Position numbers and translations under genes: made by a program. A model generated the notes under the pieces. That model was given only the letters and a program-made list of their open reading frames with translations, searched no databases and was not told the origin of the DNA. Positions 3,310-27,287 of a DNA stretch of 32,586 nt are shown here, one piece after another. Numbering within the stretch: position 1 is the first letter of the stretch; the number at the start of each line of letters is the position of its first letter. The DNA is from a virus: IMG/VR virus record IMGVR_UViG_3300045009_000361, positions 1 through 32,586 of that record. One strand, written 5' to 3'.

Positions 3310-4173
3310 GTGAAAAACCAGTTGGCAGAACGTGTTACACAACGCATCATCGACCAGCTAGAGAGCGGCGTCGTCCCTTGGCAAAAGCCATGGACGGTCG
3401 ACGGCTTACTACCCACGTCGGGTGCTAGCAAAAAAACGTACCGTGGAATCAATACCTTGATTCTGTCTACAGTTCAATTTGCGGAGGGCTACAAAAGCCC
3501 CTACTGGCTCACCTACAAACAGGCAGAAAAAGAGGGTGCTCACGTCCGCAAGGGCGAGAAGGCGACGCCGATTGTCTTCTGGAAGGTCATTGATAAGCCC
3601 GAGGCCAAAGAGGATGAGAGTTCAAAGTACGTCGTATCAAGGTCATACAACGTCTTCAACCTCGACCAAATCGAGGGTTTGGAAATTGAGACGCCAGAGT
3701 TCGTTATTGAGCCTCCCGACCAAATTCAACGGCGGGTCTTGTCAGGATACGAAAAGGCCCCTCAGGTGATTTACGCGGCGCAGGGACGGGCATCTTACTC
3801 GCCCGCTCTTGACCGAGTGACTTTGCCGCCCTACTCCGCTTTCAACTCAAACACGGGTCACCTTGCAACGCTGTTTCACGAATTGGTGCATTCGACGGGT
3901 CACGAGTCCAGATTGAACCGATTCGCAAAGACTGGCCTGCCTAACGAAGAGTATGCAGAGGAGGAGTTGGTCGCAGAGATTGGCGCGGCCATTCTTAACG
4001 GCTACTTTGGCTTAGACGTACAGCATGAGCAATCCGCAAGTTACATTGCGAGTTGGTTGAGCGTGCTTAAGAACGACCGAAACCTGCTGGTCAATGCGGC
4101 GCAGAAGGCACAGAAAGCAGTGGACTTGCTAAACGTCGACGGCTTGCAGGTGGACTTGGCTGTTGCTGCTTGA
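3310..4173 (+). CDS. ardC: ArdC-like antirestriction protein (ssDNA-binding plus zincin)
   Basis: A 287-residue protein with the two-domain layout of ArdC. The N-terminal domain (about 1-120) has the hallmarks RVTQRIIDQLESGVVPWQKPW and YRGINTLIL, typical of the ssDNA-binding region of this family. The C-terminal domain is a zincin-like metallopeptidase with H190-E191-L192-V193-H194 inside FHELVHSTGHESRLNR and a downstream YAEEELVAEIGAA helix that should supply the third ligand. Known ArdC proteins protect entering DNA from restriction. The GTG start is set by the GAAAGGGGG site just upstream, behind palindromic element 1. The following gene starts in a TTGA overlap. Confidence 0.88.
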   Translation: MKNQLAERVTQRIIDQLESGVVPWQKPWTVDGLLPTSGASKKTYRGINTLILSTVQFAEGYKSPYWLTYKQAEKEGAHVRKGEKATPIVFWKVIDKPEAKEDESSKYVVSRSYNVFNLDQIEGLEIETPEFVIEPPDQIQRRVLSGYEKAPQVIYAAQGRASYSPALDRVTLPPYSAFNSNTGHLATLFHELVHSTGHESRLNRFAKTGLPNEEYAEEELVAEIGAAILNGYFGLDVQHEQSASYIASWLSVLKNDRNLLVNAAQKAQKAVDLLNVDGLQVDLAVAA

Positions 4174-6082: not shown

Positions 6083-6592
6083 GTGTCAGAAGACAGAGAA
6101 CCGTTTGAAATCACGGACGATTCAACCGCTGCATGGGCTATGCGAAAATTACGTGCCTTACGTCAGCAGATAGAGGCGGCACGCAAAACCGCAGAAGATG
6201 AGACAGTCAGAGTTCAAGACTGGTTAGAGCGACAGACTGAGAAAATCGAGAGAGACGCTCAGTACTTTGAGAATTTATTGATTCATTACGCGATTGAACA
6301 AAGACAAAACGCAGACCGCAAGACGATTGACCTTCCCACGGGTCGCGTAAGCTCGAGAGCGTCGCATGAATCATGGAGCATCGACAAAGAAAGTTTCATC
6401 AAATGGGCGAAAGATTTTGCGCCTAATTTGGTGAGAATCAAGACGACTGAGTTGCCAGAGACCGTCGAGGTGTTGGAAGAGCACCTTGTCAGCGCTAATG
6501 GCAAAGTGGTTGTAAAGGAGACAGGCGAAATCGTCGACGGCATCGAGATAAAAGACGCGACGATATTTTACAAAGTGGAGGTAGACAAATGA
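6083..6592 (+). CDS. gam: Gam-like host-nuclease inhibitor protein
   Basis: A 169-residue protein. The N-terminal half is a long charged helix (AAWAMRKLRALRQQIEAARK to VQDWLERQTEKIERDAQYF) followed by TIDLPTGRVSSRASHESWSI and KWAKDFAPNLVRIKTTELP. This is the pattern of the Mu Gam family, which binds DNA ends and blocks host exonucleases such as RecBCD or AddAB. It is the first gene after promoter element 2, starts with GTG, and overlaps the Sak4-like gene by ATGA, consistent with a recombination operon. Confidence 0.82.
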   Translation: MSEDREPFEITDDSTAAWAMRKLRALRQQIEAARKTAEDETVRVQDWLERQTEKIERDAQYFENLLIHYAIEQRQNADRKTIDLPTGRVSSRASHESWSIDKESFIKWAKDFAPNLVRIKTTELPETVEVLEEHLVSANGKVVVKETGEIVDGIEIKDATIFYKVEVDK

Positions 6593-7455
6593 GTACATTC
6601 AAGAAAGCATCAAAATCACAGGCAAAAGCACGAATAGCAATGCACGGGCCAAGCGGCTCAGGCAAGACTTTCACCGCACTTGAATGGGCGACCGTTCTTG
6701 CGGATAACGGCAAAATTGCCGTCATCGACACCGAGCGCAACTCGGCAAGTCTGTACGCAGACAAGTTTGAGTTCGATGTGTTGTCATTCAACCCGCCATA
6801 TCACCCCACGCGTCTAATCGAGGTATTTGATGTCGCAGAAAGCGACGGCTACGCCGTCGTCGTGATTGATTCCCTTTCACATTTCTGGGCAGGCGCAGGT
6901 GGCGTGTTGGAAATCGTTGACGAAGCTCGAGCCAGTTTCGCAAAAAATAACACCTATGCGGCATGGGGTATAGGTACGCCCCTACAACAAAAGATGATTG
7001 ACAGGATTCTTTCTCACCCTGCACATGTCATCGCGACCATGAGGTCGAAGACTGATTGGCAAATTAACAACGACAACGGTCGAATCACACCCACAAAAGT
7101 GGGCTTGGCACCGCAGCAACGTGATGGTGTTGAGTATGAATTTACTTTGGTGTTAGACATCGACATCAGGCACCGTGCGTCAGTGTCCAAGACGCGCTAT
7201 GCAGCAATTGCTGACCAGACGTTCGACACAAGCGAGACTAAGAAAGCCGCTCAACAGGTTTTGAGTTGGCTGAAGGAGGGCACGGAGGAGACCCCTGACT
7301 TCCGTGACAATTTAAGGCAACGCATTAGCTTGATGCCTGAGCACAAGAAAGAAACCTTGCGCTCACTTTGGGACGCTAAGGGTTTGCCAAAATTAGACAA
7401 CCTCACGCAAACCGATTTGACGCAGGTCGAGGAGTTATTCAGCCTCGCTGAATAG
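6589..7455 (+). CDS. Sak4-like RecA-fold ATPase / recombinase
   Basis: A 288-residue protein with a Walker A GPSGSGKT at residues 20-27 and a Walker B ending at Asp94 (VVVIDSLSHFW). Next come AAWGIGTPLQQKMIDRIL and HVIATMRSKTDWQIN, the layout of the AAA_24/Sak4 group of phage single-strand annealing or recombination ATPases. The region after about residue 225 is a variable helical tail. It is coupled to gam and lies before the replication initiator; an SSB encoded at 16451 would be a natural partner. Confidence 0.85.
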   Translation: MSTFKKASKSQAKARIAMHGPSGSGKTFTALEWATVLADNGKIAVIDTERNSASLYADKFEFDVLSFNPPYHPTRLIEVFDVAESDGYAVVVIDSLSHFWAGAGGVLEIVDEARASFAKNNTYAAWGIGTPLQQKMIDRILSHPAHVIATMRSKTDWQINNDNGRITPTKVGLAPQQRDGVEYEFTLVLDIDIRHRASVSKTRYAAIADQTFDTSETKKAAQQVLSWLKEGTEETPDFRDNLRQRISLMPEHKKETLRSLWDAKGLPKLDNLTQTDLTQVEELFSLAE

Positions 7456-7510: not shown

Positions 7511-8242
7511 ATGAGCGTCGAAGCAATTAGCGCCGTGCTGCACAACAGCAAGGCCAAAGGCACAACGAAGTTAGTACTTATCGGAATCGCAAACCACGAG
7601 GGCGACGGGGGCAGTTGGCCCTCGATTGAGACGTTATGCAAATACGCAAACTGTGGGCGAACACAAGTGAAGAAATCCATTAAAGAATTAAAAGCCATGG
7701 GTGAGTTGGAAGTATTAATCCAACAGGGGGGCAATCAAAAAACTAGGGGAGACAAAAGACCCAATTTGTATCGAGTTCTTGTGCCTCCATATTTAAAGAG
7801 CGGGGGTCACACGGGTGACCGTCGTAAAGACGAACGGGGGTCACTTTTGGACGAGCGGGGGTCACTTTTTGAGCCCGCGGGGGTCACACGGGTGACCCCT
7901 AACCGTCCTATAGAACCGTCCATATTAGAACCGTCCATAAAGACATCATTCGAGGTTTTTTGGGACAACTACCCCCGCCACAGCGCCAAGCCCAAGGCGG
8001 CGACGGCTTTCACCAAGGCAATAGGGAGGGGCAACTCGGCGGCAACGATTATCGAGGGGGCGGCTAGATTCGCCGACGACCCCAACCGCATAGACGAGTT
8101 CACGCCCTTGCCAGCGACTTGGCTGAATCAAGAGCGCTGGGCTGACGACCCCTTACCGCAGAGGCAAGACCGGGGGCACGCGCGGCTGAACAAGTTGGAG
8201 CAGATGACCAAGCGCCTCAACGCGCTGAGAGAGTTGCCGTGA
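7511..8242 (+). CDS. replication initiator with winged-helix N terminus
   Basis: A 243-residue protein. The N terminus (about 1-90) reads as a helix-turn-helix replication protein: KLVLIGIANHEGDGGSWPSI, LCKYANCGRTQVKKSIKELK, MGELEVL. A low-complexity middle (about 95-140) is encoded by repeated DNA. The C terminus has FEVFWDNYPRHSAKPKA and PLPATWLNQERWAD, typical of phage replication-initiation proteins. The ATG at 7511 is preferred to an upstream frame extension because AAGGGG is well spaced before it and the family starts about here. The internal repeats suggest the gene contains its own origin, as in lambda O. It overlaps the next gene by GTGA. Confidence 0.8.
   Translation: MSVEAISAVLHNSKAKGTTKLVLIGIANHEGDGGSWPSIETLCKYANCGRTQVKKSIKELKAMGELEVLIQQGGNQKTRGDKRPNLYRVLVPPYLKSGGHTGDRRKDERGSLLDERGSLFEPAGVTRVTPNRPIEPSILEPSIKTSFEVFWDNYPRHSAKPKAATAFTKAIGRGNSAATIIEGAARFADDPNRIDEFTPLPATWLNQERWADDPLPQRQDRGHARLNKLEQMTKRLNALRELP
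7801..7936 (+). repeat. iteron cluster, candidate replication origin inside the initiator gene
   Basis: CGGGGGTCAC occurs four times (7801-7810, 7835-7844, 7856-7865, 7878-7887). The first and last extend into palindromes of the form GGTCAC-ACGG-GTGACC; the last has perfect 8-base arms (7880-7899). AACCGTCC follows three times (7901, 7914, 7929), separated by A/T-rich DNA. The peptide encoded there is low-complexity, so the DNA rather than the protein seems to be conserved. An origin inside the initiator gene is known from lambdoid phages. Confidence 0.6.
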
Positions 8243-8655
8243 GGCACGCCGAGGTCGAGCAAGTTTTAGGCGCTGTCATGCAAGTAGACGACCGCGTGAC
8301 GCTAGACGATTATCGGGTGGCGGCGTGGGTCGAGATACTCGACGCCGACATGACGCTGGACTTCGCGATTGGCGCGGTGCGCAACCATTACGCGAGCGAG
8401 ACGACGGTGCTCATGCCAGCGCACGTAAATCGTGCGTGGCGTCAAGTAAGATTGCGTGAAAAGGAAAAATCACGTACAAAAGCAATCACGGGAGTTCAAA
8501 AACAAGCATTGTCTGCGGAATCCGCAGCCCAATTAGATTATTTGAAACGGAGGTTCCTGAGCATTGCCAATTCAGCGAATCCCGACAAGGCGGAGGAAAA
8601 AACAGACAGGAGCAGACCAGAAAATTCGACGCTTAATTCGACAACGGGCTTTTAA
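8239..8655 (+). CDS. hypothetical replication-region protein
   Basis: A 138-residue soluble protein from a GTG start overlapping the initiator's stop. The first 75 residues are well ordered (LGAVMQVDDRVTLDDYRVAA, AWVEILDADMTLDFAIGAV, PAHVNRAWRQVRLRE) and resemble small proteins placed next to initiators in actinobacterial phages, where a helicase-loader role is sometimes suggested. The tail (about 100-138) is polar and probably disordered, and it is encoded over the first part of the HNH gene. Function is not established. Confidence 0.6.
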   Translation: MRHAEVEQVLGAVMQVDDRVTLDDYRVAAWVEILDADMTLDFAIGAVRNHYASETTVLMPAHVNRAWRQVRLREKEKSRTKAITGVQKQALSAESAAQLDYLKRRFLSIANSANPDKAEEKTDRSRPENSTLNSTTGF

Positions 8656-9293: not shown

Positions 9294-9510
9294 ACCACGC
9301 ATTGAGCCAAGCGAGGATTTGATTACAGACCTAACGAAAATTAAGGAGGTTACTAAAGAGATACACGACACGCAAAGACTTCTACTTAATTTAGCAAAAA
9401 CGCGAAGACGCCTAGTGCGTTATGCAAAAGAGAAAGGTGCAACTCATAGAGCCATATACGAGTACGGAGGGGCTTACGTGCGCAACGCCAAAGTAAAAAA
9501 TGAGGCTTGA
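9277..9510 (+). CDS. small basic protein, possibly DNA-binding
   Basis: A 77-residue protein from a GTG start preceded by GAGGGGGA. It is helical and very basic (RLLLNLAKTRRRLVRYAKEK) and ends in ATHRAIYEYGGAYVRNA, which could form the recognition half of a helix-turn-helix. The family is not recognised. It overlaps the RusA-like gene by 17 bases and the ParB-like gene by 11 bases, so it belongs to the same operon. Confidence 0.6.
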   Translation: MAKLGRPRIEPSEDLITDLTKIKEVTKEIHDTQRLLLNLAKTRRRLVRYAKEKGATHRAIYEYGGAYVRNAKVKNEA

Positions 9511-10060
9511 AACCGTTTCACTCTCGGCCATAAAACCCGACCCTGAAAACTCGCGAAAACACTCTAAAAAAAATATTGATGCCATTATGGGAAGTCTGAC
9601 CAAATTCGGACAACGCAAACCTATCGTAGTCTGGCGAGAGTTCGTAATTGCGGGGAATGGCACTTTGCAGGCTGCGCAAAAATTGGGTTGGACACAAATT
9701 GAGATAACACGAGTGCCTGAGGATTGGTCACATGAAGAGGCGCGTGCTTACGCAATAGCTGACAATCGCACAAGTGAATTAGCCGAGTGGGACGACTTTA
9801 TGTTGGCAAATCAATTAATTGAATTAGATGCCGTCGGTTGGGATATATCTGAGTTTGGTTTCGACCCATTGACACCACCGACCGAGCAGCCTGAGTTGGC
9901 TGAGACGGGCACGGTTAGGCGCATCTTTCGTTTGACAGAATCACAAGCGGATTTAGTAGATTTGGCGATAGCGAGAGCCAAGACCAAAGCACCGTCGGTT
10001 GATTATGAGAATGCCGATGCGAATGCTCTGGTGCAGATTTGTCGGGAGTGGTCAACATAG
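9500..10060 (+). CDS. ParB-like N-terminal domain protein
   Basis: A 186-residue protein with a ParB/sulfiredoxin-type domain in its first 100 residues: LETVSLSAIKPDPENSRKHS, FGQRKPIVVW, VIAGNGTLQAAQKLGW (the G-N-G-T box replacing the usual G-x-x-R), and EARAYAIADNRTSELAEWD. In phages such domains lie beside terminases or methyltransferases and may bind DNA or CTP, or act as nucleases; sequence alone does not settle which. It directly precedes and overlaps the small terminase gene, suggesting a packaging or genome-handling role. Confidence 0.78.
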   Translation: MRLETVSLSAIKPDPENSRKHSKKNIDAIMGSLTKFGQRKPIVVWREFVIAGNGTLQAAQKLGWTQIEITRVPEDWSHEEARAYAIADNRTSELAEWDDFMLANQLIELDAVGWDISEFGFDPLTPPTEQPELAETGTVRRIFRLTESQADLVDLAIARAKTKAPSVDYENADANALVQICREWST

Positions 10061-19326: not shown

Positions 19327-20724
19327 ATGCACAAAATAACCCTTGACCTAACTAAAGCCACGAGCAGCACGGACGTGCCTCTGACTTTGGTCGCTGCCGT
19401 ACGTAACGCAATCGAGCGTGGATTCACCGTGGCTGACTTGGTATTCAATCTGACCGACCGCGGCTATGACATGGTGCTGGTGCCTAAGGGCATGAAAAAC
19501 GGCATTCCTGTGCCGCTTTCACCGAATGAGTTGGTGCAGCGAATACAGAAACACCAAGGTGGTAGGCACGACCAACAATCTCACGGTAACTGGGCTGACT
19601 CTGGCTCACCAAAATTAAAAATTATTGGTCAATATCAAAAACCTTTTTTTGTGCCAAAAGAGCAAACAAGAGTAGTGCGTTATGAATCACAAAATGAAAA
19701 AACTGATTTTTTACTGTATGCAAAAAAGGGAACCAAACTTGAAGGCATATCTATATATGCACATCGCCTTAGTTCAAAAAACGATATGTTGGAAACGGTT
19801 GGTCAACTTGTTGATTGGGACGAAGATGACGGTACGTCGAAAATTATGCACGTGCATGTGTCATCTAGCCACCGACGAAGAGGCATCGCTTCTGCCATGC
19901 TGCGGTTGTATCGAGATATGTATCCTGAGAAAAAAATCAGACACTCCGAGTCTTTAACTCCAGACGGTAGAGCATGGGCAAGTGTCGTGAAGCATCAGTC
20001 GGGCACACACGACCAAGAAAGCCACGGGAATTGGGCTGACAAACTAAGTGGCACAAGGACGGGTGACAATCGACTAGACCTTTACGAGTCAATGGAATTG
20101 CTAAAGGGTCAACCTGACCCTCAACAATACCGCGTTTATGAGGCACAAGAGAAAGCCTTTCCTGGAAAACAAGTTATTGCTCCTGATTTTGACAATGACC
20201 CAAAAGCATATGGCTCTTCACAGGAATATAACGACGCCTATAAAAAATACTCAAAAGAGTACACCGCATACGTGCGAGCACAAACAAAAAACGTCATATC
20301 ACCACTTGCAAAAAAACATTTGAATGGTATGCCGAAGGGAGTTAAAAATTACATAGAGGAGGTTATTGCACAAGATTGGTTTGTGGAGGCTTTCGGCAGC
20401 GCCGATTTTTTTCCAACACTTGAAATCAAAATCAATCAAGCAAACGTGACTGCTGGGGGCTATTTTCAAGAATTTAACACCCGCACGAGGCGGAGCAGAC
20501 ACGGGATTACCATTGGTCGCAATTTCGCACAAGATGAAAGATTGATGTTGCATGAAATCGCCCATTACGCCACAGCCATAAGTGCCACAGAAAAATATCA
20601 ACACCATGGACGTGAGTGGGCGGGCAATTTTCTTTACATATTAGAAAAGCAATTTGGAAGAGCGAGCGCCGAGCGTCTGCGAAAAGCATTCGACAAAAAC
20701 AAGGTTGAGTACACCAATGATTGA
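19327..20724 (+). CDS. tagged cargo protein 1: GNAT-like domain and HExxH metallopeptidase
   Basis: A 465-residue protein made of modules. Residues 1-74 are an unrecognised N-terminal domain (LTLVAAVRNAIERGFTVADL). Tag copy 1 is K75-D91. Residues about 92-221 hold a GNAT-type acetyltransferase core with HVHVSSSHRRRGIASAM, the acetyl-CoA loop being R183-RRGIA. Tag copy 2 is K222-D238. The C-terminal 225 residues end in a zinc peptidase-like domain: L-H409-E-I-A-H413-Y and a later HHGREW (426-431), a SprT-like HExxH...HGxxW arrangement. The second half is visibly A/T-rich. The next gene overlaps by 8 bases. I infer a head-packaged multi-enzyme; enzyme activities are not proven. Confidence 0.8.
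   Translation: MHKITLDLTKATSSTDVPLTLVAAVRNAIERGFTVADLVFNLTDRGYDMVLVPKGMKNGIPVPLSPNELVQRIQKHQGGRHDQQSHGNWADSGSPKLKIIGQYQKPFFVPKEQTRVVRYESQNEKTDFLLYAKKGTKLEGISIYAHRLSSKNDMLETVGQLVDWDEDDGTSKIMHVHVSSSHRRRGIASAMLRLYRDMYPEKKIRHSESLTPDGRAWASVVKHQSGTHDQESHGNWADKLSGTRTGDNRLDLYESMELLKGQPDPQQYRVYEAQEKAFPGKQVIAPDFDNDPKAYGSSQEYNDAYKKYSKEYTAYVRAQTKNVISPLAKKHLNGMPKGVKNYIEEVIAQDWFVEAFGSADFFPTLEIKINQANVTAGGYFQEFNTRTRRSRHGITIGRNFAQDERLMLHEIAHYATAISATEKYQHHGREWAGNFLYILEKQFGRASAERLRKAFDKNKVEYTND
19549..19599 (+). repeat. HDQ-HGNW tag, copy 1
   Basis: Encodes KHQGGRHDQQSHGNWAD, residues 75-91 of cargo protein 1, standing before the GNAT-like domain. Confidence 0.9.
19990..20040 (+). repeat. HDQ-HGNW tag, copy 2
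   Basis: Encodes KHQSGTHDQESHGNWAD, residues 222-238 of cargo protein 1, standing before the metallopeptidase half. Confidence 0.9.
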
Positions 20725-23551
20725 AAAAATCGATATCGTCGACCCGATACCCCCCGCTCTGTTACCAAAACCCTACAAAGGCTCATTGCCTGAGTTCGCA
20801 ATGTTTAAACACGAGGGCGGGGGCCATGACCAAATGACACATGGTAATTGGGCTGATGGCAACGCCGACATAAAAACAGGCTTAGAAAGATTAGCCAGTC
20901 AATTTGATGACTTTGAAAATTTTAGTCGTGCTATAAGTCAAGACACTTTAAGGCCGAGAGCATGGCACATCGCAGGTGACGATTTTGAATTAGACCCAAA
21001 TTTCGAGCCTTCTGGAAGATTAGGTGAGCCAACACGAGGCGGTGGTCTTTTCGTGGGTAGTCCAGAATATTGGGAAGAATACGCCACGAATCGTGATACT
21101 GTCATTGAGTTTGATTTAAGTAATCTAGATTTCACAAGTAATCCGCTACAAAATACAAACGCGGATTTTTACGCAGACCAATCAGGTAATCAAGGTTTTT
21201 TTGTCCGACCTACGGCGTTTCCAAAATTGCAAGAGGTGGGGCGTTACACCCTCGATGAGGCCAAGGAGCGCGCAGAACAACAACAAAAACAAATGCCAAA
21301 ATCAAAAGCGGAGGCACGAGAGATTTGGGAGCGGGCACGCAACGTTGCAAAACACCAAGCAGGTCAGCACGACCAGCAAAGTCATGGAAATTGGGCCACA
21401 GGTTATACGGAGGCAGAGCGCGCAGGTATTGAGGCGATGCAGGACGAGGGGCCGACGCTGGAGGAAATACAAGCCTTCCTCAAGGGCGGGAGACCCAAGC
21501 CACTAACTATGGAACAAGCGACACTTCTTATTAACAATGAGGAAGAGCTTTACGAGGCTTACGTTGCGGCCGTTGGCAAATACGTGAGTGACAAGAATCC
21601 AAAGGCAGACGCGGACAAACTCAACGATTTAATTGAAACTGCACTAAACGACGACACCTACATCGAACGATATATCGAAGATTACGACATTCGCACGGAG
21701 TTTTCTGAGGAATTACAAGTCGGCAGACCCGATGAGATAGACATGATGGAAAAATTTAACGAGGTGTACGGAGTCTCAGTCGATGACGGGAAATTAGAGA
21801 CAGTGGTAGAGGGAGTCAAGCGCCTTGGCGAAAACACGATTGAGGTGACGGGAAACGTTTATGCGGCGCAGATTGTTGTTGGAGGCTTTGAGAGGGTTTT
21901 GTCGCTCAATCGCGGAGCACTGTCGGTCGAGCACCAGCTGTTCCAAATAGAGCCCGATTACAGAGGGTTAGGGCTCGGACAAGAGTTTTTGAGGCGGAGT
22001 GAGGATTGGTACATCGCGCGCGGCATCACCAAAATCGGAGTGAGGACGGCGTGGGACGGCGCCTACACGTGGTCGAGGGCGGGGTTCGACTTTTCTCGCC
22101 CAATGGAGGCAGTCCGCACTTTAATTAAAGGCGTGAGGAATGCCGTCAACAATGACGTGTTGGATGTTGCGGAATTAGACGTTTGGAGGGACTTACTTGA
22201 GCGCTCGACGGAGGGCCTCAACCTGTACCAAAAAGACGGCGACCTTTTCATCGACTACGAAAGTACTAAAGACATCAACGTCGAGGACTTCCCGCTACCC
22301 GCTGAGTTTGCGAGGGCGCCGCAGGCGAAAGAGGTCATGAGAGACATGGGAATGGGAATGGTTAAGTACCTCACACCCGAGGGCCGTGCCCTTGCGGAAG
22401 GGCCAATAGACAGAGACGGCGACGGCATGGTGTTTGATGGTACGCCGCGCGAGCGTCCGGCGAGACCGAGTGAACGTGTTGCCGCCGCTAAATGGAGTGC
22501 GAGAGACACCAAACTCCAAGCGATATCTAACGCTTACTACAAATACGGTAAAGACGATTTTATGAATGAGAATGAAGGAAGCGACCAAGACAACCCCGAG
22601 TTGGACAAAGCAATAGACAAGATTTTGGGCAAAAACAGTTTCATGAAGCGCTTGATGTCATTCAGTTACTCGGTAATCAAGCATCAAGCAGGGACACATG
22701 ACCAGCAAAGCCACGGGAACTGGGCTGATGGTCTGGGTTATCGAGACAAAAATTTTGATAGAAGTGGTCTTAGTCAAGACGACATCACGAAGGCTTATCG
22801 AGAGGCAGGTGTTAGTGAGGGAAAAATAAATCAAGAGGTTGAGGCTCTAGCATTTTATACAGGTGCAGGATTTTCAGACATAAATAGAACTCTTCGTGAG
22901 CAAGAACTCGACCCCACACTCGACGATAGTGAGTGGACAACGGAGCAAATAGAGGGCGCAATTTTTACTGTTTTTTCTGACGAGTACAAAAACTATCAAA
23001 ATTTCGCAGGCGACGACGCCTCACTTGAGGATTTTATCGACACAAACATCGAGAGAATAACGGAGTATTTAGAAGGTGCTCGTGAAGAGCGACTTACTGC
23101 TGCGGAACGCCTTACCTCTCCGTTACGAGGGTTAATAGAACGCATGCCCGCGATGCTCGGAAACACTACGGTGTATAGAGTTTTTTCGAAAAATGTAACT
23201 GATGAGCTTGACGTGGGTGACGTAATCACCGATAAAGGTTTTCTATCGACGACCGCACGGGATTTGACTAATCCTCAAGAAGCCGTGGCGCGCTCTCACT
23301 TTGCGGACATGTCAGGCACAGATGATGTGGTGGGTGTGATATTGCCTAAAAGCGGCGGGGACGGGAAGGGGCTTTACGTAAATTCTTTTCTTGAGGCTAT
23401 AGGTGAGCCCATACCTCCTTTTTTTGATACAGAATCAGAGGTGTTATTACCACCATCAACCCGCCTACGTTTAGTCAGAGTTGAAAAGCGTAGTGCGGAA
23501 GGGTCAAACGGTTTGATAGAAGACGTTTATGTATTTGAGCGTGAGAATTAA
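20717..23551 (+). CDS. tagged cargo protein 2: GNAT-like and ADP-ribosyltransferase domains
   Basis: A 944-residue protein from ATG 20717, inside the previous gene's end. Order: short leader; tag 3 (K31-D47); module A to about 205, with RAWHIAGDDFELD, GGGLFVGSPEYWEEY and NQGFFVRPTAFPKL, perhaps a distant ADP-ribosyltransferase-like fold; tag 4 (K212-T228); a helical region; a GNAT-like domain with YRGLGLGQEF (RGLGLG at 416-421) and TAWDGAYTWSRAGF; an EF-hand-like loop DRDGDGMVFDGT (565-576); tag 5 (K655-D671); and a C-terminal ADP-ribosyltransferase with the R-S-E signature: R821 in VYRVF, S844-T-T in GFLSTTA, and E906-S-E908 in DTESEVLLPPSTRLRLV. The ExE form implies arginine modification in known families. 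Targets are unknown. Confidence 0.82.
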   Translation: MIEKIDIVDPIPPALLPKPYKGSLPEFAMFKHEGGGHDQMTHGNWADGNADIKTGLERLASQFDDFENFSRAISQDTLRPRAWHIAGDDFELDPNFEPSGRLGEPTRGGGLFVGSPEYWEEYATNRDTVIEFDLSNLDFTSNPLQNTNADFYADQSGNQGFFVRPTAFPKLQEVGRYTLDEAKERAEQQQKQMPKSKAEAREIWERARNVAKHQAGQHDQQSHGNWATGYTEAERAGIEAMQDEGPTLEEIQAFLKGGRPKPLTMEQATLLINNEEELYEAYVAAVGKYVSDKNPKADADKLNDLIETALNDDTYIERYIEDYDIRTEFSEELQVGRPDEIDMMEKFNEVYGVSVDDGKLETVVEGVKRLGENTIEVTGNVYAAQIVVGGFERVLSLNRGALSVEHQLFQIEPDYRGLGLGQEFLRRSEDWYIARGITKIGVRTAWDGAYTWSRAGFDFSRPMEAVRTLIKGVRNAVNNDVLDVAELDVWRDLLERSTEGLNLYQKDGDLFIDYESTKDINVEDFPLPAEFARAPQAKEVMRDMGMGMVKYLTPEGRALAEGPIDRDGDGMVFDGTPRERPARPSERVAAAKWSARDTKLQAISNAYYKYGKDDFMNENEGSDQDNPELDKAIDKILGKNSFMKRLMSFSYSVIKHQAGTHDQQSHGNWADGLGYRDKNFDRSGLSQDDITKAYREAGVSEGKINQEVEALAFYTGAGFSDINRTLREQELDPTLDDSEWTTEQIEGAIFTVFSDEYKNYQNFAGDDASLEDFIDTNIERITEYLEGAREERLTAAERLTSPLRGLIERMPAMLGNTTVYRVFSKNVTDELDVGDVITDKGFLSTTARDLTNPQEAVARSHFADMSGTDDVVGVILPKSGGDGKGLYVNSFLEAIGEPIPPFFDTESEVLLPPSTRLRLVRVEKRSAEGSNGLIEDVYVFEREN
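20807..20857 (+). repeat. HDQ-HGNW tag, copy 3
   Basis: Encodes KHEGGGHDQMTHGNWAD, residues 31-47 of cargo protein 2, standing before module A. Confidence 0.9.
21350..21400 (+). repeat. HDQ-HGNW tag, copy 4
   Basis: Encodes KHQAGQHDQQSHGNWAT, residues 212-228 of cargo protein 2, standing before the helical region and GNAT-like domain. Confidence 0.9.
22679..22729 (+). repeat. HDQ-HGNW tag, copy 5
   Basis: Encodes KHQAGTHDQQSHGNWAD, residues 655-671 of cargo protein 2, standing before the ADP-ribosyltransferase domain. Confidence 0.9.
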
Positions 23552-24709
23552 ATGAGCCGATTCATCACCTTACGAGAGCACGTACAGATAACCCGCGGCA
23601 AGAAAATCATCAAACACCAATCAGGAGGCCACGACCAAGAATCGCATGGGAACTGGGCTGATGGCGGAAGTGGAACGTTCACAGGGGGACAATTTGGAAT
23701 AGCGTTAAAAAACTATAGTGTAAAACAAGACATCGACACCCCACAAGTTGCAAAAGCGTTCGTCGCAAAACGTTTGAGCGAGAGAATTGATGCCACGACT
23801 GAAGAATTAGTTAATGCCTTTCAAGATGATGGTCTCGGGGTACAAACGCCATTTGGTAAAAAATTGCAAGCGGCTGTTGACGCCGATGCGATTTGGACGG
23901 ATAATCTTGGTCGTCCAATATCGAGCGTTGACCAGGATGAACTAGGAACTCACGTTGCGTTAAATAGTTATGGCAACTTACTTTTTTACACGATTGGCTC
24001 TCACGATGTGCCACCGGGTGACGTGTTGGAACGACCATGGGTCAAGCGTGGCTCACCTGAGGCCAAAGAATACGCACGCGTAGCAGCCGTTGGTGAGCTT
24101 GTAAATCAATGGGCAACAACGTCGAATGATGATGAAGCAATCTCTTTGGCCATTCAAAAAGCGGCTGAAGTGGAATTCAATATGAAGAATGTCGCTCCGT
24201 GGCAGACAACGGATGACACGAAAATACGTCTGGACTATCAGATTCGGAATAATCAGAAAGTGCATCGTGCGTTCTTACGCGCGCAGTATGAAGATACGCA
24301 GAGAGTACTGGCCGACATGGGCGTCAAAGAAGTTGAGTTGTATCGTGGCAAGATTGTTGACGCAACAAATCCGCTAGGAACTGTTGCTAAACAACATGCT
24401 TATGGCACTTCGTCGACGACCACCGTGCAACAAAGACCTTTGTCAAGTTGGACATTCGACGTGGGTGTAGCTGATAGTTTCTCAGAGGGGGCTCAACCAT
24501 TTTCATCTATTGGCGTGACCATGAGAACACTCGTGCCTGCGCGCCGAATTCTTGCAACGTCGCTAACTGGGGTTGGCTCGATGGTCGAGGGTGAAGTGGT
24601 GATTCTTGGTGGCGGTTCTATGAAAACGAATGTGCGGCTTCCTGACGATTGGTTTGCGTTATACGAACCTGTGGCGGTTGATGACAACACGACGGACTAC
24701 AAGCCCTGA
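23552..24709 (+). CDS. tagged cargo protein 3: ADP-ribosyltransferase
   Basis: A 385-residue protein starting directly after the stop of cargo protein 2. A 20-residue basic leader precedes tag 6 (K21-D37). Residues about 45-255 are mainly helical and unrecognised. The C-terminal domain is a clear ADP-ribosyltransferase of the R-S-E type: R265 in ELYRGKIVD, S298-S-W-T in RPLSSWTFDVGVADSFSEG, RILATSLTG, and E346-G-E348 in MVEGEVVILGG. It has the layout of bacterial exotoxin-like and T4 Alt-like enzymes that transfer ADP-ribose from NAD to protein Arg. With the tag and its place among head genes, delivery with the virion is the favoured inference. Confidence 0.85.
   Translation: MSRFITLREHVQITRGKKIIKHQSGGHDQESHGNWADGGSGTFTGGQFGIALKNYSVKQDIDTPQVAKAFVAKRLSERIDATTEELVNAFQDDGLGVQTPFGKKLQAAVDADAIWTDNLGRPISSVDQDELGTHVALNSYGNLLFYTIGSHDVPPGDVLERPWVKRGSPEAKEYARVAAVGELVNQWATTSNDDEAISLAIQKAAEVEFNMKNVAPWQTTDDTKIRLDYQIRNNQKVHRAFLRAQYEDTQRVLADMGVKEVELYRGKIVDATNPLGTVAKQHAYGTSSTTTVQQRPLSSWTFDVGVADSFSEGAQPFSSIGVTMRTLVPARRILATSLTGVGSMVEGEVVILGGGSMKTNVRLPDDWFALYEPVAVDDNTTDYKP
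23612..23662 (+). repeat. HDQ-HGNW tag, copy 6
   Basis: Encodes KHQSGGHDQESHGNWAD, residues 21-37 of cargo protein 3. Its DNA is nearly identical to copy 7. Confidence 0.9.
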
Positions 24710-24710
24710 A

Positions 24711-27287
24711 ATGAATAAGCCAATCAACATCGATGATGATTTGTTAAGTACCGACTGGATAAAAACCTCGTCGTGGGATTTGCCAACCGACGCTGAATAT
24801 TTTCAAGACACATATAGTGATGACTGGCGTGACGCTCTTAGCAAATTGCCTGCATGGCAAGCAGCCCCCGCGAGTCTTAAAAACAAAATGAAAAAACACC
24901 AATCAGGAACACACGACCAAGAATCGCATGGGAATTGGGCACGCGGTTTTACGGAGGATTTAAAAAACTTTGACCCAAAGGCGCCCGTAGCGACAAGCCC
25001 TCGCAATGCGGGGGGAGTTACTGAGCGAATGTGGTGGGCATGGGAAAAGGGGCCCGACGGTAACAATTACGTGGAGCTTTATCGCAAATATGCTGCTGAA
25101 GTTTTAGGTTTACCCATTCCAGAAAACACGGGTTATGAACGTGGTGGCTATCGCGACTACATGTTGGAACGTGGGTGGGGTGCTCCAACAAAAGCGAAAA
25201 CTGAGGCTTTCTTAAATGCGATTAGCAACAGTCAACCTCAACCAACTCTGTATCGAGGCATTGGTCAATACGCGACACAAGCACCAGAAGAAAGAGAAAC
25301 GTTTGAGACATTTGCAAATGTAAAAAAGGGCGACCAACTCGATATGGTCATGGCGTCAACAACCCGTAGCCTTGGTGTTGCTGCTTGGTATGCGGCTAAT
25401 AGGTCGGGCTTTCCCTACGAGACGGACAGGGGCAAAATTCTCATAAAAATTCAAGCGGGGGCAAAAGGTTGGAGTCCATCAAAAAAACAGGCTTGGTGGC
25501 CTGATGACCACGAGGTTGTGACTAGCGGCAAATTCGAGGTGGTTAATGTTGAGAAAGTCAAAACGCCTTTTTGGTTTAGACAACCTTACGAAGTGCGACG
25601 ATTGGCTTATCGAGGGGGTAACGAGGAGGTGCCTGAATCACAAATCAATTACCAAATTTCAGATTTCAGCACAGGTCTTGCGGAGCTAAACGATTACATA
25701 CCGAGTGCTGAGGGCGGGCGAAAGATTTATGACGCGATGATGGCGAACGACATGTCCCAGTACGAGACACCAACAAAAAAAATAGTAAGACGGTCTGATA
25801 CAAATATCGCGAACGGTCACGTGTGGACACTACGGGAGCCGACTGAGTTCACCATAATTGAGATGAAAATGATTGAGCCCCACGCTGTAAAAAAGGCCAA
25901 TGATTTTGGCAACGATTTTTATTGGCTATTTGAGGAGACGCCCTTTATACGCGATGTCAAATTAGAAAAACACCAATCAGGAAGCCACGACCAATTAAGT
26001 CACGGAAATTGGGCTACGGGCATAGACCCCGAGGTCGGTCAAAAGGTAAGACAGTTCACCCAAGAATGGGGTGGCCTTTCAATCAACATGGTCGATGGCT
26101 CCATGCCAGATAAGGGCTACATGGTCGCCAAGCCGCCTCAGTTCGGCGAGGTAGTGGACGCAGCCGACTTTCTGAACCCCTCTAGGGGTGATAAGATTCT
26201 GTCAGCCTATATGCGCAGGCATAAGGCAGATTTGAGTACGGGCAAGAATTATTTGGGCACGTGGCTCAATGAGGGCAAGGTATATCTCGACGTATCGCAG
26301 AACGTACAGCAGCGTGAGACAGCCGTAAGGTTAGGCAGGGAACGTAACCAGAAAGCAATCTGGGATGTTGTGAACATGGTAGAAATAGAGACGGGGGGAA
26401 CGGGTGCCGCAGAAAAAGCAAGTCGACATGGTGGAATTGAAGAGTTTGAAAGATATGACCGACGAAGAGATAGACGAGTACGCCAAGGTTATCTACAAGA
26501 AAATGGCTTTAGCTATGAAGGAACGTCAAGCCAAACAGGGTTAGACAAGCATTTCAGTCATGAGCAGCGAGACCACGGCAACTGGGCGCGCGGCAAGAGC
26601 TCGTTACCCGCGGTAGAAAATCCAAAGGCAAATCGCAGCCCTGAGATAAATCAAATCGCACAGGATATTCGCAAGCGACGCGCAGCCGACGAGCCGAAGG
26701 TCACGCAAGACATGATGACGTTAGCGGAAAAATACGGCGGAAACATGGTCGACCTGCAATACCGTTTGAAAAGCGAGAAATCTATCGCACGCAAGGTCGA
26801 GGCTGACGCGCAAGAAAAAAGAATCACACCGCAGAAGGCGGCAGAAGACATGAGTGACGTTATCCGCTACACCATGCAATTCGACACCGACGGATACACC
26901 CGCGGAGTTCAAGGCACAATTGCAGGCTTACAAGAGGCGGGCTACACGATTGATGAATCACGAGTAAAGAATTTTTGGGAGCCTATAGATGGCTATCAAG
27001 GTCTGAATGCGAAGATGCGTCACCCCAACGGATATGAGATTGAGTTGCAATTTCACACGCCCGAGTCCTCAAGGGTCAAGGCAAATACACACGCCGTCTA
27101 CGAGGTATATCGCGAGACAAATAATCCGCAACAGAGATACAAGTTGTATGACCGCATGCGACGCATAGCACGGCGAGCGACAACACCGTCTGGAGCCCTC
27201 GCCATCGGTCTACCCGCGGTGATACCTTTAGTTGTGGGGGGTAAGGAATTTCTCTTGAAGATGCTGAAAAAGCGGTTTCTCAAATGA
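24711..27287 (+). CDS. tagged cargo protein 4: ADP-ribosyltransferase-like and RelA/SpoT-like domains
   Basis: An 858-residue protein from ATG 24711. Order: acidic leader; tag 7 (K62-R78); an ADP-ribosyltransferase-like domain with R182 in LYRGIGQY, S216-T-T in VMASTTRSLGVAAWYA and D266-H-E268 where ExE is expected; a linker to about 419; tag 8 (K420-T436); a domain with KGYMVAKPP, KVYLDVSQNV and QKAIWDVVNMVEIETGGTG (to 565), a combination I believe recurs in phage head proteins; an Arg-rich stretch (565-612) that reads like an out-of-frame translation; degenerate tag 10 (K613-R627); and a RelA/SpoT-like nucleotidyltransferase with RLKSEKSIARK (685-695), DVIRYT (716-721), YQGLNAKM and E778-L-Q-F-H-T. 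It ends in a hydrophobic segment and basic tail. Function is inferred from these folds. Confidence 0.8.
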   Translation: MNKPINIDDDLLSTDWIKTSSWDLPTDAEYFQDTYSDDWRDALSKLPAWQAAPASLKNKMKKHQSGTHDQESHGNWARGFTEDLKNFDPKAPVATSPRNAGGVTERMWWAWEKGPDGNNYVELYRKYAAEVLGLPIPENTGYERGGYRDYMLERGWGAPTKAKTEAFLNAISNSQPQPTLYRGIGQYATQAPEERETFETFANVKKGDQLDMVMASTTRSLGVAAWYAANRSGFPYETDRGKILIKIQAGAKGWSPSKKQAWWPDDHEVVTSGKFEVVNVEKVKTPFWFRQPYEVRRLAYRGGNEEVPESQINYQISDFSTGLAELNDYIPSAEGGRKIYDAMMANDMSQYETPTKKIVRRSDTNIANGHVWTLREPTEFTIIEMKMIEPHAVKKANDFGNDFYWLFEETPFIRDVKLEKHQSGSHDQLSHGNWATGIDPEVGQKVRQFTQEWGGLSINMVDGSMPDKGYMVAKPPQFGEVVDAADFLNPSRGDKILSAYMRRHKADLSTGKNYLGTWLNEGKVYLDVSQNVQQRETAVRLGRERNQKAIWDVVNMVEIETGGTGAAEKASRHGGIEEFERYDRRRDRRVRQGYLQENGFSYEGTSSQTGLDKHFSHEQRDHGNWARGKSSLPAVENPKANRSPEINQIAQDIRKRRAADEPKVTQDMMTLAEKYGGNMVDLQYRLKSEKSIARKVEADAQEKRITPQKAAEDMSDVIRYTMQFDTDGYTRGVQGTIAGLQEAGYTIDESRVKNFWEPIDGYQGLNAKMRHPNGYEIELQFHTPESSRVKANTHAVYEVYRETNNPQQRYKLYDRMRRIARRATTPSGALAIGLPAVIPLVVGGKEFLLKMLKKRFLK
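24894..24944 (+). repeat. HDQ-HGNW tag, copy 7
   Basis: Encodes KHQSGTHDQESHGNWAR, residues 62-78 of cargo protein 4, before the ADP-ribosyltransferase-like domain. Confidence 0.9.
25968..26018 (+). repeat. HDQ-HGNW tag, copy 8
   Basis: Encodes KHQSGSHDQLSHGNWAT, residues 420-436 of cargo protein 4, before the AIWD...TGGTG domain. Confidence 0.9.
26404..26544 (+). other. alternative-frame ORF inside cargo protein 4 (relic or overlapping gene)
   Basis: In the +1 frame a GTG at 26404 (or ATG at 26428) opens VPQKKQVDMVELKSLKDMT, DEEIDEYAKVIYKKMALAM, KERQAKQG and a TAG at 26542. This reads like a natural helical phage protein, whereas the main frame there is Arg-rich and odd (EEFERYDRRRDRRVRQGY). 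A one-base indel in the nearby G6 (26393-26398) or A5 (26413-26417) run would join it to the upstream domain. Confidence 0.35.
26547..26591 (+). repeat. HDQ-HGNW tag, degenerate copy 10
   Basis: Encodes KHFSHEQRDHGNWAR, residues 613-627 of cargo protein 4, before the RelA/SpoT-like domain. The QxGx spacer is shortened and Asp is replaced by Glu, but both the first and last parts of the tag are kept. Confidence 0.7.

Follow-up and report, generated by a model that had tools for sequence, protein, structure and literature searches.

The replication-initiator gene of this phage very probably carries the phage's own origin of replication, a lambda-type in-gene site that combines lineage-specific iterons with a more conserved unwinding element. 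The site lies in the window, by which we mean the whole contig of 32,586 bases that was analysed, a complete IMG/VR virus record that contains terminase, portal, head and endolysin-like genes and comes from a tailed phage, of which it is possibly a fragment. Two repeat families within the initiator's disordered linker are under selection at the DNA level, and relatives preserve the order and spacing of the two. Every computable part of the origin reading offered in a preliminary description of this DNA holds. What that description missed is that the two families evolve differently, the first being lineage-specific and the second common to many phage initiators.

The protein had been called a replication initiator, and this identification is borne out: phrog_270 (replication initiation protein; E 5e-34) is the PHROG family that it matches best, and HTH_36 (E 2.5e-11) is its single Pfam domain; the O-like families phrog_8540 and phrog_391 also match. 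The AlphaFold model is composed of a winged helix (residues ~1–92), a disordered stretch (residues 99–137, pLDDT <50) and a helical C-domain from residue 143, and the repeats take up most of the disordered stretch. This segment had been described as low-complexity, as expected when DNA repeats dictate the peptide; disordered is the better term, while the dictation by DNA stands in light of the three-frame reading and the synonymous null described below. A sequence search of solved structures found no relative. The winged helix gave three weak fold matches, 4pql, 4pt7 and 5kbj (E ~0.02–0.07), which we take to be pSK41-type RepA initiators and which are shared with many winged-helix regulators. 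Upstream of the initiator lie genes for a RecA/Sak4-like ATPase and a Mu Gam-like protein. The next gene downstream (8239–8655) has PHROG matches that are all of unknown function, and thus neither a helicase nor a loader was recognised beside the initiator; in Gordonia, Mycobacterium and Brevibacterium phages, annotated DnaB-like helicase or helicase loader genes come after the genes with related C-domains. Elsewhere in the window, 3310–4173 encodes an ArdC-like anti-restriction protein with a zincin-like metallopeptidase domain, and 20654–23551 and 24630–27287 encode two very large proteins that both match phrog_2859, the latter with a C-terminal head-morphogenesis (minor head) domain.

Four copies of CGGGGGTCAC followed by three of AACCGTCC are present where the preliminary description had placed them (Table 1). 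All four CGGGGGTCAC copies fall within 87 nt, and the word is absent elsewhere on both strands of the contig. The copies are spaced by 34, 21 and 22 nt, approximately two helical turns, and lie entirely inside the initiator coding sequence. Good inverted repeats are formed at two of the four iterons, copies 1 and 4, in agreement with the two palindromes noted earlier. The clustering of CGGGGGTCAC is not attributable to chance. Indeed, none of 500 Markov-1 contigs contained at least three non-overlapping copies of any 10-mer in 90 nt, 20,000 synonymous recodings of the segment never produced a 9-mer in four copies, and within the contig the iteron site alone has a 9-mer present at least three times in 140 nt. 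Moreover, the copies of CGGGGGTCAC between them occupy all three codon frames, and selection on one peptide cannot keep one DNA word in three frames.

Table 1 Features of the initiator gene, its two repeat families and the genes upstream of it.
Feature	Position	Strand	Codon phase	Peptide	Remarks
Replication initiator gene	7511..8242	+			243 aa; HTH_36, phrog_270, AlphaFold model
Iteron 1, CGGGGGTCAC	7801..7810	+	2	GGH	
Iteron 2, CGGGGGTCAC	7835..7844	+	0	RGS	
Iteron 3, CGGGGGTCAC	7856..7865	+	0	RGS	
Iteron 4, CGGGGGTCAC	7878..7887	+	1	GVT	
Inverted repeat extending iteron 1, GGTCAC-ACGG-GTGACC	7805..7820				arms 7805–7810/7815–7820; loop 4 nt
Inverted repeat extending iteron 4, GGGGTCAC-ACGG-GTGACCCC	7880..7899				arms 7880–7887/7892–7899; loop 4 nt
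AACCGTCC copy 1	7901..7908	+	0	NRP	starts 23 nt after the start of iteron 4
AACCGTCC copy 2	7914..7921	+	1	EPS	
AACCGTCC copy 3	7929..7936	+	1	EPS	
Proposed unwinding region with the AACCGTCC array	7900..7965				stability dip
RecA/Sak4-like ATPase gene	6589–7455				upstream of the initiator gene
Mu Gam-like gene	6083–6592				upstream of the initiator gene

The three AACCGTCC copies directly follow the iterons and occur nowhere else on either contig strand. They are also the sole instances of the shorter word AACCRTC on the plus strand of the contig. Because three copies of some 8-mer in 40 nt arise in ~1% of random contigs (2 of 200), the AACCGTCC array needs comparative evidence. The stretch had been described as A/T-rich, which holds to a moderate degree only: positions 7900–7949 are 60% AT and belong to approximately the least stable 5% of the contig's 50-nt windows. 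An unwinding region had been proposed to adjoin the iterons, and a stability dip is found beside them in the window. The dip is sharp in the mean of 52 aligned sequences, in which duplex stability is lowest at the array (+0.19 kcal/mol per step relative to the gene mean) and exceeds the average across the iterons. Cumulative GC skew, which had been suggested as a check, speaks neither for nor against the origin; over the whole contig it has no turning point at 7.8 kb, its raw minimum is at position 2182, and nearly all genes lie on one strand. That minimum adjoins a minus-strand gene (1242–2027) that matches phrog_3704, labelled ferredoxin (E 2e-54).

Relatives of the initiator were gathered from viral contigs by protein search (47 loci) and profile search (78 loci), and 124 phage records, mostly of Arthrobacter phages, matched it at E 1e-5. 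Relatives retain the repeats in altered sequence and spacing: among 57 relatives with a comparable N-domain, taken after removal of near-duplicates, linker 8-mer repetition exceeded that of synonymous recodings in 54 (p<0.05 each), and more than one codon phase was used in 52 of 57 loci with clustered repeats. The iteron sequence itself is lineage-specific (CGGGGTGAC, CGGGGTGAA, CGGGGTGCA, CCCCGGTCGC, GGGGCGGTGT, GCCCTGCCAGT and others), with a spacing that peaks at 22–24 nt and shows minor peaks at 18–19 and 30–33 nt. A peptide kept by relatives that had lost the repeats was named at the outset as the outcome that would count against an origin, and nearly all relatives show the opposite. The small clade of L054, L055 and L057 has the initiator N-domain and a linker with one or two AACCRTC words and without clustered iterons. 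Iteron sequence and recognition helix co-varied by partial Mantel test (p 0.001) with no signal in pairs <70% identical over residues 1–40, and we therefore do not claim such co-variation.

The closest relative, L052, encodes a protein 57% identical to that of the window and retains CCCCTAACCGTCCTATAGAACCGTCC letter for letter despite divergence of its linker peptide. Its last palindrome, GGGGGCGA-AGGG-TCGCCCCC, when compared by eye with GGGGTCAC-ACGG-GTGACCCC in the window, shows three arm changes that are each matched in the opposite arm. Thus, it is the dyad symmetry itself that has been preserved, which fits a site to which a dimer binds. Paired changes would also be expected of an RNA hairpin, and the inverted repeats could in principle act as mRNA hairpins that control translation or termination. 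This explanation is extremely unlikely, as good inverted repeats accompany only half of the iterons, and what is conserved is a set of direct repeats at helical spacing together with the AACCRTC array, which is not self-complementary.

Comparison across phage initiators showed that AACCRTC recurs over lineages with unrelated iterons, in copies ~11 bp apart and in all three frames. Among 64 non-redundant genes identified by N- or C-domain protein homology, the linkers contained 98 AACCRTC words, whereas 19.7 were expected by synonymous recoding (maximum 34 in 1000). The density of the word in these linkers was ~20 times that in the rest of the genes, with at least one copy in 50 of the 64 genes and at least two in 34. 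When no motif was preselected, the most widespread 6-mer after the last iteron was AACCGT, found at 31 loci with 48-fold enrichment. The first AACCRTC lies 22–25 nt after the start of the last iteron in 22 of 44 measured loci, and the outliers, at 9–46 nt, are partly due to the automatic choice of iteron.

Viral contigs were also scanned by DNA only. An exact scan of 2.9 million viral contigs for three AACCGTCC copies within short gaps gave 15 matches, 11 of which are in the linkers of HTH initiators beside various iterons, as judged from translations and repeats. A reversed-motif control gave 16 matches, none of them in an initiator, and hence it is the location of the matches, not their number, that is informative. 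A looser scan for AACCRTC with gaps of 10–13 nt yielded, among the matches listed, 63 non-redundant same-strand ORFs of at least 100 aa, of which 50 matched phrog_270, similar numbers matched other replication-initiation families and 46 matched HTH_36. By contrast, none of the eight opposite-strand ORFs scanned among these listed matches matched a replication family, indicating that the word is directional and belongs to the coding strand. In the 63 ORFs, again among the matches listed, the copies are separated by gaps of 10 (19 cases), 11 (73), 12 (41) and 13 nt (7), and the words fall in the three codon phases 50, 107 and 49 times.

These data also bear on whether the EPS/NRP-type segment is instead a conserved linear peptide, such as a docking motif, with the DNA repetition arising from codon choice or local duplication. 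The word is most often read as EPS (87 of 206 words among the matches listed), and phase 1 predominates in the homology set (68 of 98 words), as a peptide motif would predict. However, the other two frames read AACCRTC as NRQ, NHQ, RTV, GTV and others, 55 of the 63 arrays use more than one frame, and the spacing follows 11 bp, with gaps divisible by three in only 41 of 140 cases, all among the matches listed. Synonymous recoding, moreover, fails to yield the array. Selection for a peptide is thus a very unlikely source of the repeats, and the array is better read as a DNA element of the origin.

AACCRTC is not universal among phage initiators. The word is absent from lambda and P22 and from six of the eight gammaproteobacterial phage genes checked, four of these six having related words such as GAACCAGTCA. 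A protein search of genome contigs found nothing, and a pattern scan of genome contigs returned mostly tandem repeats; initiator-like linkers, recognised by eye rather than by profile, were present in pattern matches titled Proteobacteria, Actinobacteria and Campylobacter.

DNA-level selection on the repeats could also arise if they functioned as an operator for autoregulation of the initiator operon or as parS-like partition sites, bound by the initiator or by a ParB_N-like protein. Iteron-binding initiators can also autoregulate, and a ParB_N-like gene, which is also similar to methyltransferase-fused ParB domains, is located 1.3 kb downstream (9500–10060). The repeats, however, sit in the middle of the initiator gene, away from its promoter, and are coupled to the stability dip, and their layout follows the initiator family across phages and matches the mapped lambda and P22 origins. 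An operator or partition role is therefore improbable, and an in-gene origin best accommodates this arrangement.

To our knowledge, in-gene origins are known from experiment for few phages. In lambda, O binds iterons within gene O beside an A/T-rich tract (PMC7466680). Analysed in the same way as the window, lambda shows the word ATCCCTCA in three frames, and the starts of its annotated iterons are separated by 20, 24 and 23 nt. The window resembles the lambda ori in gene O, P22 gene 18 and the Stx phages in having mid-gene iterons, ~20–24 nt apart and in several frames, that are followed by an easily melted region (PMC7466680). It differs from lambda and P22 in its iteron sequence, in the possession of an HTH_36/phrog_270 initiator rather than O itself and in the presence of AACCRTC. 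The RepA_N plasmid pSK41 likewise has its repeats inside the initiator gene, with four Rep boxes central in rep and the matching protein segment forming a linker (PMC5703833); unlike pSK41-type proteins, the window initiator lacks RepA_N, the Pfam scan giving HTH_36 only. Closer at hand, the Arthrobacter phages HannahPhantana, Cupello, Eesa and Leona encode initiators ~35–40% identical to the window protein, in which iterons ~22 nt apart are followed by three to four copies of GAACCGTCC at 11–13 bp in three frames, although their iteron core is CGGGGTG where the window has CGGGGGTCAC. These genes are annotated as HTH protein or replication initiation protein, and the annotation of the regions fetched contains no origin feature. 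In the case of mycobacteriophage RepA, the origin has been suspected to lie either upstream of repA or within it, with repeats not identified in the regions examined (PMC7157519).

The second array also invites comparison with the DnaA-trio and plasmid 13-mers, opening-region repeats that are bound single-stranded by initiators (PMC10797057). The likeness lies in short repeats of fixed orientation located by the initiator sites at the opening region (PMC10797057), and the differences in sequence and repeat length. A DnaA-trio unwinding element as such was rejected, as the window repeat is an 8-mer beside initiator-type iterons and does not have the DnaA-box trinucleotide layout.

We infer binding, unwinding, helicase loading and origin activity at this site, with a mechanism drawn by analogy with lambda O (PMC7466680). 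The initiator winged helix would bind the four GC-rich iterons, as half-sites or full dyads, approximately two helical turns apart. The resulting nucleoprotein complex would strain the adjoining AACCGTCC region and favour its opening, and the initiator C-domain or a partner may then help to place the replicative helicase at the opened region. In more general terms, we consider it an even call whether AACCRTC, repeated roughly once per helical turn, is a directional element for unwinding or loading that is conserved among in-gene origins in phages of Actinobacteria and Proteobacteria and depends little on iteron sequence or on the initiator C-domain. Such an element would be a phage counterpart of the DnaA-trio or 13-mers, recognised by a conserved partner, and would make it possible to find origins by sequence in many phages that are uncharacterised. 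The signature of variable iterons with a more conserved AACCRTC array already marks candidate origins in many such phages, and it explains odd initiator linker peptides such as TVLEPSLNRPVEPS. It also suggests a two-part model, in which a module for specificity evolves fast, a module for opening evolves more slowly, and both are embedded in a protein-coding stretch. Neither the AACCRTC array nor the difference in pace between the iterons, which change fast, and the more conserved second array was found described in the searchable literature, the coverage of which leaves out most subscription papers.

Other repeat layouts were observed among further phage initiators. Related proteins at loci L101, L102 and L107–L122, many of ~140 aa, end shortly after the winged helix, and in some of these genes a 9-mer recurs with a spacing of 22 nt close to the end of the gene (CGACCGGAC, CATTTAAGA). 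In Mycobacterium phage Beakin (L136, 967–1770), a RepA-like gene contains four tandem 8-bp repeats of the GGAACAGA type in all frames. In Gordonia phage Splinter (L139, 1018–1809), an initiator with an unrelated N-domain contains five copies of GGACCGGCG, spaced 11 bp apart and read in all frames, which make it a candidate for a different type of in-gene origin.
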